NCBI RefSeq assembly: GCF_019668465.1
Contig: NZ_AP024828.1
Coordinates: 4,774,001 to 4,838,000, forward strand
Direction: 5' to 3'
From: Mycobacterium senriense
GTDB lineage: Bacteria > Actinomycetota > Actinomycetes > Mycobacteriales > Mycobacteriaceae
Length of the DNA: 64,000 bases
Shown: piece after piece, positions 1-28,690 of the stretch
Position numbering within the stretch: position 1 is the stretch's first letter
Layout of the letters: each line of letters opens with the position of its first letter
Program-made: the position numbers and the translations under genes
The notes under the pieces: generated by a model
What the model saw: the letters and a program-made list of their open reading frames with translations, nothing else
Told to the model about the DNA's origin: nothing
Database searches by the model: none

Positions 1-1364
1 CGCGGTTACCCATCTGGTCCAGGCGGGTGTGCTCCGGCGCGTCGAGCAGGTCCACCGCCGACAGCGGCCGGTCCGGATCGGCGGTCATCGCCAGCAGCAC
101 CCGCTCCAGCCGGTCGCTGAGCGCCTCGATGGTCGGCGTGTCGAAAACGCCGGTGTCGTACTCCACCCGCAGGCCCAGTTCCTGGCCGGACAGTGCCGCC
201 TGCATGGTCAGCGGATAGTGGTTGCGCTCGAACATGTTGACGTCGGCGATCGCCAGTTCGTGGTCGACCGCCATCGCCGAGGCGTCCAGCGGGTAGTTCT
301 CGTAGGCGAACAGGGTGTCGAAGAGCTTATGGTGACCGGTGATCCGGTGCATCTCGCTCAGCGCCAGGTGCTGATGGTCGAGCGTCTCGGCGTGACCGCG
401 CTGCAGCTGGCCGAGCAGTTCGGTCGTGGTGGTCGCCGGCGTCATGTTGGCGCGCACCGGGACGGTGTTGATCATCAGACCCACCATCGATTCGGCGCCG
501 ACGACCTCGGCCGGCCGGCCCGACACGGTGGTACCGAAGGCGACGTCGTGCTGGCCGGTCAGCCAGGCCAGCAACTGTGCCCACGCACCCTGCAGCACGG
601 TGCTGACCGTGGTGCGGCTGGAGCGCGCCAGCTCGCTGAGCGCCCGGGTGGTGTCCTCGGACAGGGCGAACGATTGCACGCCGCGGGCGCCGAACTCCAG
701 CTGTTGCGGCGGCCCGACCAGCGTCGGGGTGTCGAAGCCGTTTAGCACCTCACCCCACGCCGCGCGCGCGGCGTCGAGGTCGCGGTCGGCCAGCCAGGTG
801 ACGAACCTGCGATACGGCGCGGGTGCGGGCAGCCGCTGCCCGGTGTAGCAGGCGAACGTCTCGTTCAGCAGGATCGGCACCGACCAGCCGTCCAGCACGA
901 TGTGGTGGATGGTGAGGACCAGCCGGTGCCGGTCGTCGCCCGTGCGCACCAGCGCGGCGCGGACGGCGGGCTGGTCGGCCAGGTCGTAGACTGCGGCGCG
1001 CTCGGCGGCGCACAGCCGCTGGATCTTCTCCTCGGGCTCGCTGCCGTTCGGCGTGAACTCGAGGTGCCGCCACACCATCGCGGGATTCGCCGGAATGATC
1101 TGGACCGGCTCGTCGAATTGGTCGCAGAATCGGGCCACCAGGTGCGGGTGCCGGCCGACCACCGTGTGCATTGCGTCGCGCAGCCGGTCGCCGTCCAGCG
1201 GACCGGTCAAAGTGAGATCCAGCTGCACGACGTACAGGTGGTCGTCGTTGCCCCGCGTGGTGTCGGCGTGGAAGAGCAGCCCCTCCTGCAGCGGGGTGAG
1301 CGGCAGCACGTCGGCGATCCGCAGCCGCCGCTCGAGCTCGTCGATCTGCTTCTGGTCCAGCCGG
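1..1364 (-). other. NRPS module 8: C(DCL) domain, adenylation domain beyond the left edge
   Basis: A complete condensation domain starts at about 1360 ([13 protein letters not shown]). It has [11 protein letters not shown] near 890, the D-acceptor form matching the epimerase in module 7. The frame ends at the window edge inside the C-to-A linker ([11 protein letters not shown]), so at least one more A-T pair must lie outside. Confidence 0.85.
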
Positions 1365-28300: not shown

Positions 28301-28690
28301 ATACTCGTCGGGAGCCGTGCGAAATAACGCGAACTTGATCATGGGGCCGGTGAGCGGCATCGGCGTCTTCTGAATCGATGAAGCCGTCTCACGGACTTCC
28401 CGCTCGGCGTCGCGCGCGTCGGTCAGGTCATAGAAGACCAATTCGACATCGTCGTATTCGACGGCCTTCTGGAAGACCTGGCCATCGACCTCGAAGAACG
28501 AAGCACGCAGGCTCTCAGCCTCATTCACCACGTGTCGCATAGCCTGATGCAACAAGCCGGTGTCTATGGCACCCTGGATATGGACCAGCACACCCAGCTG
28601 CCAGGCCACATCGAAATTGCCCGTTTGTTGCGCCAGCCAGATGTCCAGCTGGCCTCGCGTCACAGGAAGTGCCCGGTCAGCACGCTCCAC
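1..28690 (-). CDS. Giant multimodular non-ribosomal peptide synthetase (lipopeptide-type), C-terminus beyond left edge
   Basis: This synthetase assembles a peptide on carrier domains in the cytoplasm. The minus-strand frame stays open for at least 9,563 codons. I checked that the T-domain motif DLGGDS lies in the same frame in all seven complete modules. Seven adenylation domains carry A3 motifs of the type YTSGTTGxPKGV, near plus positions 26860, 22360, 17985, 14825, 11660, 7175 and 4010. The layout is C-A-T-E, C-A-MT-T, C-A-T, C-A-T, C-A-T-E, C-A-T, C-A-T-E, C-(A). The GTG at 28690 is the first possible start after the stop at 28751-28753 and follows a G-rich ribosome site (GGGGGG). No thioesterase or reductase is visible, so termination lies outside the window. 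It sits 53 bp downstream of an MbtH gene, so the two probably share a transcript. The exact product is not recognised; relation to the M. avium paratuberculosis lipopentapeptide synthetase is inference. Confidence 0.95.
1365..5914 (-). other. NRPS module 7: C(LCL)-A-T-E, D residue, same pocket as module 5
   Basis: The C domain has HHIAADGWS near 5500. The A pocket reads D-V-W-S-V-A-A-V-Y-K, the same as module 5. The T domain ([12 protein letters not shown]) is at about 2895 and the epimerase motif [11 protein letters not shown] near 2370. Its C domain shares a 110-bp exact nucleotide repeat with module 5, so at least part of this module arose by duplication or conversion. Confidence 0.82.
4813..4922. 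repeat. 110-bp exact intragenic repeat, copy in NRPS module 7
   Basis: This is the second copy of the repeat at 12457-12566, in the same orientation and about 7.6 kb apart. The flanking bases differ, so the identity ends sharply at both sides. Confidence 0.95.
5915..9029 (-). other. NRPS module 6: C(DCL)-A-T
   Basis: The C domain carries [11 protein letters not shown] near 8550, the D-acceptor form that must follow the module 5 epimerase. The pocket reads D-Y-W-S-V-G-V-V-F-K by hand alignment, related to module 3 and otherwise unassigned. The A3 motif reads [14 protein letters not shown]. The T domain is near 6058. With no epimerase, an L residue is expected. Confidence 0.8.
9030..13554 (-). 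other. NRPS module 5: C(LCL)-A-T-E, D residue
   Basis: The C domain has HHIAADGMS near 13135. The pocket reads D-V-W-S-V-A-A-V-Y-K, identical in all ten positions to module 7. The substrate is not assigned; a small or beta-hydroxy residue is possible. The T domain is at about 10535. The E domain has [11 protein letters not shown] near 10010, followed by the [10 protein letters not shown] and NYLGR landmarks typical of epimerases. Confidence 0.82.
12457..12566. repeat. 110-bp exact intragenic repeat, copy in NRPS module 5
   Basis: Every base is identical to 4813-4922 when compared by eye. It encodes a stretch of the C domain around [15 protein letters not shown]. Module 4 (about 15625-15730) has a related copy with a few mismatches. 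Confidence 0.95.
13555..16719 (-). other. NRPS module 4: C(LCL)-A-T, predicted L-Phe-like
   Basis: The C domain carries HHIAADGLS near 16305. The A pocket reads D-V-W-T-V-A-A-M-C-K, one or two conservative changes from the common Phe code D-A-W-T-V-A-A-V-C-K. This is the best-supported substrate call in the gene. The T domain ([12 protein letters not shown]) lies near 13700, and no epimerase follows. Confidence 0.82.
16720..19899 (-). other. NRPS module 3: C(LCL)-A-T
   Basis: The C domain has [10 protein letters not shown] near 19470, the L-acceptor type, which agrees with no epimerase in module 2. The pocket reads D-F-W-T-V-G-V-M-W-K by hand alignment. I do not recognise this code; the V322/G301 pattern resembles module 6 and suggests a small-to-medium hydrophobic residue. 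The T domain ([12 protein letters not shown]) lies near 16866. No epimerase follows, so an L residue is expected. Confidence 0.8.
19900..24229 (-). other. NRPS module 2: C(DCL)-A-N-methyltransferase-T
   Basis: The C domain carries HHILLDGWS near 23755, the D-acceptor type expected after an epimerase. The A domain has the A3 form [12 protein letters not shown] and is clearly more divergent than the other six. The hand-aligned pocket reads D-A-G-F-M-G-V-I-W-K, suggesting a hydrophobic aliphatic residue but matching no textbook code. About 1.2 kb is inserted between A8 and A10 (about 20300-21470). It encodes an N-methyltransferase with the SAM motif [13 protein letters not shown] near 21300, followed by [14 protein letters not shown]. 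The A10 lysine (SGKLD) is present. The T domain reads [12 protein letters not shown] near 20035. Confidence 0.85.
24230..28690 (-). other. NRPS module 1: C(starter)-A-T-E, predicted D-aromatic (Phe-like)
   Basis: The first condensation domain (residues about 1-450) has the active-site motif HHIAIDG at about residue 136. It differs from the internal C domains, as expected for a lipo-initiation or starter C domain. The adenylation pocket, aligned by hand to GrsA, reads D-V-W-T-A-V-A-M-C-K, close to known Phe pockets (D-A-W-T-x-A-A-x-C-K). The T domain ([12 protein letters not shown]) lies near 25745. The epimerase has [10 protein letters not shown] near 25210, with Ala where Gly is usual. Predicted residue: N-acylated D-Phe or a similar aromatic; the acyl donor is not in the window. 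Confidence 0.8.

Follow-up and report, generated by a model that had tools for sequence, protein, structure and literature searches.

An eight-module, single-gene peptide synthetase of Mycobacterium senriense as the predicted source of a lipooctapeptide of the M. avium type

The stretch of Mycobacterium senriense DNA analysed here (the window, 64,000 nt, G000:C1:4774001-4838000 in the genome) holds the larger part of a single NRPS gene whose product, with good confidence, can be regarded as a lipooctapeptide of the M. avium type, N-acylated and linear. The ORF list of the window gave a minus-strand frame (2..28690, 9,563 aa) that is open at the left edge; in the genome this frame extends 2,588 nt beyond the edge, the complete gene (G000:C1:4771413-4802690, minus strand, 31,278 nt) encoding 10,425 aa, of which residues 1-9563 lie in the window, with one terminal and no internal stop codon. 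A sequence-only reading of the window had claimed a mycobacterial NRPS of at least eight modules in a single polypeptide, which was borne out by an intact frame with exactly eight modules and a C-terminal thioesterase (TE). Its count of seven complete modules plus an eighth condensation (C) domain was reproduced by profile search, and the leftward extension it had proposed for finding the last modules and the release domain led to A8, T8 and TE, which were found within the 2,588 nt just outside the window.

Domain architecture and neighbouring genes

Profile searches identified the domain order C-A-T-E / C-A(nMT)-T / C-A-T / C-A-T / C-A-T-E / C-A-T / C-A-T-E / C-A-T-TE, the release domain at the C-terminus being a TE (PF00975, 7.1e-26, Pfam). 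Pfam was run on three stretches of the NRPS and confirmed the C, A, T, MT and TE domains, and the E domains were called from their position after T, their own identity group and the motif HHLAVD..SW, which is a mark of E domains; their boundaries were set by hand. Short MT matches were also obtained in modules devoid of MT (29-56 bits versus 1131 for the real MT), and these stem from the C-terminal portion of A which the seed shares and do not indicate MT domains. In the domain-order comparisons of protein P0053 and of 31 long synthetases, both described below, MT matches spanning fewer than 150 profile positions were dropped, and in the latter comparison doubled TE matches were counted as one domain. 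The features, in window positions, are as follows:

1..28690, minus strand: in-window part of the eight-module NRPS gene, which continues left to G000:C1:4771413
27341..28669, minus strand: C1, N-terminal condensation domain, probably of the lipo-initiation type by its identity to the GPL C1
24191..27295, minus strand: A1 (DVWTAVAMCK, Phe-like), T1 and E1, predicted D-residue 1; E boundaries set by hand
19919..24154, minus strand: module 2 with C2, A2 (DAGFMGVIW), embedded N-methyltransferase and T2; C2 groups with C6 and C8
16763..19864, minus strand: module 3 with C3, A3 (DFWTVGVMWK) and T3; A3 code as in module 3 of P0053
13598..16699, minus strand: module 4 with C4, A4 (DVWTVAAMCK, Phe-like) and T4, by profile search and code
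8981..13534, minus strand: module 5 with C5, A5 (DVWSVAAVYK, the GPL D-Ala code), T5 and E5; E by hand
5954..8950, minus strand: module 6 with C6, A6 (DYWSVGVVFK) and T6, by profile search and code
1337..5890, minus strand: module 7 with C7, A7 (code identical to A5), T7 and E7; E boundaries by hand
1..1306, minus strand: C8; A8 (code identical to A1), T8 and TE are situated beyond the left window edge at L031:5413-8000
28744..28971, minus strand: MbtH-like protein, 75 aa, TTG start assumed (PF03621, 1.2e-27), directly upstream of the NRPS gene
30169..30963, plus strand: sulfolipid-1-addressing family protein (PF11139, Pfam), divergent from the NRPS gene; candidate export helper
46117-49263: MmpL
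49811-51043: P450

Upstream loci of relatives (from 19 of the first 20 genomes fetched) carry the MbtH gene in 15 of 19 and the PF11139 gene in 16 of 19 cases, one of the misses (L204) being a locus of only 4.4 kb. Downstream of the NRPS gene an N-acetylglutaminylglutamine amidotransferase and an MFS transporter are encoded, which recur in 16 and 17, respectively, of the 21 downstream loci scanned and are probably unrelated to the lipopeptide. The former had been considered, as an asparagine-synthase-like gene, for a tailoring enzyme and was rejected on its match to TIGR03104 (1030.1 versus a cut-off of 570.1). Among the part of the neighbour ORFs that was scanned, no fatty-acid activating gene was found. 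The MmpL and P450 genes are located at least 17 kb from the NRPS start. Among the 19 upstream loci of relatives, MmpL was found in one (L195, where the locus edge truncates it) and P450 gave only 32-33% matches, in two, a scarcity which says little because these loci reached only about 15 kb and are hence shorter than the distance in question. The window part 28001-64000, which carries MmpL, P450, UbiD and aldehyde dehydrogenase genes, has a G+C content of 62-65%, as compared to 65.7-68.9% in ten other sampled parts of the genome, several of which are rich in NRPS genes.

Specificity codes and the predicted product

The code residues were obtained from an alignment with GrsA, whose sequence was verified against 1AMU, and two calibrations were carried out. 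For the first, the codes of the GPL locus of the same genome (DFWTVAAVCK, DFWSVGMVHK, DVWSVAAVYK and DVHSVAAVYK in module order) were set against the GPL peptide, which PMC3537567 gives as D-Phe, D-aThr, D-Ala, alaninol. The second set the residues of L5P against the codes of P0053. According to PMC8103206, L5P of M. avium subsp. paratuberculosis is a mycobacterial surface antigen used in diagnosis and consists of acyl-D-Phe, N-Me-Val, Ile, Phe and Ala, its synthetase gene being named mps1. In the protein search (477 candidates scored, the best 120 of the 477 listed and 15 analysed for domains) P0053 stands for an M. avium protein of 6,299 aa with 195 member sequences, which possesses five modules in the L5P pattern, with E confined to module 1 and MT to module 2; from its module order and codes we infer that P0053 is the L5P synthetase.

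Both A5 and A7 carry the GPL Ala code, and therefore Ala was assigned to residues 5 and 7. The codes of A3 and A5 are those of P0053, and A1, A2 and A4 differ from their P0053 counterparts (DVWTVVAMC, DAGIVVGIW and DVWTVAGMC, respectively), A2 at four of nine positions, so that N-Me-Val at residue 2 is a weak call. The code shared by A1 and A8 is identical to none of those calibrated here (GPL locus, P0053) and deviates from that of the GPL Phe module. The product is predicted to be N-acyl-D-Phe, N-Me-Val/Ile, Ile, Phe, D-Ala, Val/Ile, D-Ala, Phe; the assignments are weakest at residues 2 and 6. The residue pattern of the sequence-only reading, i.e., Phe-like residues 1 and 4, an N-methylated residue 2 and the same D-residue at 5 and 7, is in agreement with the codes and with the MT and E domains. 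The C domains bear on the same points. Those following E domains (C2, C6 and C8) form a group of their own, sharing 63-65% identity among themselves and 29-32% with C3, C4, C5 and C7; C domains downstream of E accept D-residues and group separately, and hence this grouping fits D-residues at positions 1, 5 and 7. C1 shares 62% identity with C1 of Mps1, the GPL synthetase of the same genome, and 24-26% with C2-C8, a combination which would fit acylation of residue 1.

The suggested course of synthesis assumes that C1 attaches a fatty acyl chain to residue 1 and that D-Phe, N-Me-Val/Ile, Ile, Phe, D-Ala, Val/Ile, D-Ala and Phe are incorporated by the eight modules in turn, whereby the MbtH protein would assist the A domains. 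Finally, the C-terminal thioesterase would free the finished chain as a linear product, and the PF11139 protein may help to carry the lipid to the envelope. It is unlikely that the gene instead makes a related octapeptide of novel structure, e.g., one with other residues at positions 1, 2, 6 or 8, or one that is cyclised or further decorated. Such a product would be in line with the A1/A8 codes being unlike the GPL Phe code, with a TE that could act as a cyclase and with the codes of A1, A2 and A4 to A8, which vary among synthetases of the same domain order (A3 is identical in 21 of 21, and the others vary, for example A5 in 9 of 21). However, the codes shared with P0053 (A3, A5) and with the GPL Ala module (A5, A7) as well as an E and MT pattern fitting L5P argue for the known type of compound, and no tailoring enzyme was recognised beside the gene.

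Relation to L5P and other mycobacterial lipopeptides

Synthesis of a lipooctapeptide of the M. avium type, the reading preferred here, connects the gene to a compound already in the literature. A Phe-containing lipooctapeptide of rough M. avium was published in 1996 and has eight residues, as the window gene has eight modules; the order given by Riviere is reportedly Phe, N-Me-Ile, Ile, Phe, Ala, Ile, Ala, Phe, and the product of the window gene may well be identical to it. The lipooctapeptide of the rough M. avium variant is said to fit in-silico predictions for M. avium complex genomes (PMC11978893). Modules 1-5 moreover show the L5P pattern. Of the sequence-only reading's undescribed mycobacterial lipopeptide, the NRPS, its mycobacterial nature and the residue pattern have stood, but "undescribed" was too strong and, as regards the product, is probably wrong. 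In the literature covered, which comprised few subscription papers, no paper was found which assigns the window gene to a product by experiment, and the link between gene and product is a predicted one.

Two further systems were compared. PMC11978893 describes the GL8P synthetase of M. abscessus (MAB_4690c/4691c) as two genes with six and two modules and a TE, its product as glycosylated, with the core T-A-F-I-Y-L-T-T and D-residues predicted at positions 1, 3, 6 and 8, and links GL8P to virulence. Both systems have eight modules and TE, and the product predicted for the window gene is, like GL8P, a mycobacterial lipooctapeptide, but the window holds a single gene with E at 1, 5 and 7, which does not place it in the GL8P type. 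With the GPL synthetases Mps1/Mps2 it shares the N-terminal C domain (at the identity given above), an Ala code and an MbtH partner. Nevertheless, it is not a GPL synthetase, as these consist of two proteins, yield a tripeptide-alaninol of four residues and are encoded at a separate locus of the same genome. GPL synthetases release their product by a reductase. About 50 kb from the GPL locus a second Mps1-like synthetase was found (G000:C1:5192670-5202977, L034; codes DLWTVGAVCK and DFWSVGMVHK), and a second TE-ended synthetase of 6,997 aa resides at G000:C1:4147642-4168632 (L035/L036), with six modules, no E and MT in module 3; P0084, which is labelled M. colombiense, is similar and likewise has six modules.

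The closest relation is that to P0053. Window modules 1-5 have the same order, with E in module 1 and MT in module 2, and the C, A, MT and E1 domains of P0053 are 76-86% identical to their window counterparts, A1 of P0053 being one point closer to window A4 than to window A1. In contrast, P0053 has five modules and no E5, whereas the window gene has eight and carries E in module 5, and thus lacks the five-module layout with L-Ala as last residue that characterises L5P. Furthermore, T5 of P0053 is nearer to other T domains than to window T5, and its TE is 55% identical to that of the window gene, of which only the first part was matched. P0053 was cut from residue 5000 to its end into pieces of 100 residues, each of which was matched. 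Residues 5000-5699 are 96-100% identical to module 5 of P0066 and P0092, two partial M. avium proteins which contain E5 and later parts and end before module 8. The best match of residues 5700-5899 is the module 7 A domain of P0066 (94% as compared to 91 and 84% for module 5), and that of residues 5900-5999 is module 8 of the window gene (90%). Residues 6000-6099 (T) are less clear, with 68% to module 8 over 100 residues and 73% to module 4 over 83, and TE comes next. This shift of the matches from module 5 via 7 and 8 to TE is what an eight-module gene without its middle would give, and therefore the five-module gene looks like an eight-module gene contracted by recombination between alike A domains.

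Distribution and descent in the genus

Across the genus, the TE query found matches in 192 of 396 genomes at 1e-20 (paralogues counted) and the C1 query in 245 of 396 at 1e-60 (paralogues counted, GPL synthetases among them); family-wide, the C1 query matched 17 of 301 genomes from 31 sampled genera, all 17 belonging to this genus. Among the genus matches, frames near 10,400 aa are recurrent, and 30 long synthetases, picked for their long frames and hence not a rate for the genus, were fetched. Together with the window gene, 21 of these 31 mycobacterial synthetases have the same domain order, the 20 others stemming from 20 other genomes with open frames of 10,365-10,453 aa; length and order of the window gene are therefore no product of chance or collapse. 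The ten differing synthetases comprise one that is split (G247), one with nine modules (G315), six that make up a second eight-module kind and two that make up a third, so that three eight-module orders and one nine-module order occur among the 31. The second kind (G363, G360, G110, G235, G217:C58 and G277:C1:5590509) has E at 2, 4 and 6, MT in module 8 and the code DFWTLGAVY in four of eight modules, and the third (G102 and G065, 10,032 and 10,021 aa) has two adjacent C domains before A3.

That the pathway is decayed or silent, for which the frame broken into separate pieces in G247 could speak, is very improbable, as the gene is intact in the window and in 20 other genomes and the protein divergence of modules 1-2 follows that of rpoB (Mantel r 0.69, 0 of 5000 permutations, 21 genomes). 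That two synthetase genes were mis-assembled or collapsed into one frame, by which the sequence-only reading would have fallen, is the least probable explanation and largely refuted: two short contigs left over in this genome's assembly (C2 and C3) do carry NRPS pieces, and repeats therefore did trouble the assembly, but 20 of the 30 fetched synthetases show the same order at nearly equal length and the genes upstream (MbtH) and downstream flank both ends as in relatives. On these contigs (G000:C2 and C3; L040, L041, L042) the NRPS of C3 lies in several broken frames, perhaps owing to poor sequence.

The nearest TE regions among named genomes, within the best 80 of 90 relatives, are those of four M. 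colombiense/M. vulneris records (91-92% protein identity), other records labelled M. colombiense reaching 82-83% within the same 80. The organism is placed close to both species, which are members of the M. avium complex. At the DNA level, the 3' part of the NRPS gene together with its downstream neighbours is 94-95% identical to three M. colombiense records and one M. vulneris record and 90% identical to a fourth M. colombiense record (L079); in rpoB, the nearest genomes reach 97.2% identity. Two results speak against plain vertical descent. G309, G243 and G169, taken as Mycobacteroides sp. LB1, M. franklinii CV002 and Mycobacterium sp. D16R12, form the outgroup in the rpoB tree and in the NRPS tree (a quick tree) are sister to the M. 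avium complex rows, which suggests transfer, and G233 has different neighbours in the two trees and A1 and A2 codes of its own, which suggests recombination within the gene.

By a narrow preference, the system is regarded as an old and mostly vertically inherited lipooctapeptide system of the genus, accompanied by MbtH and PF11139, from which L5P would have arisen by recombination between the gene's own A repeats, some Mycobacteroides copies having come from near the M. avium complex. Most likely, a conserved mycobacterial system and not a new one is at hand. The freshest parts of this picture are the conservation across the genus and the origin of L5P by contraction. If L5P is a shortened form of a widespread lipooctapeptide pathway, this would help to explain its restriction to one subspecies, and the contraction view offers a ready gene-to-product test in other species.
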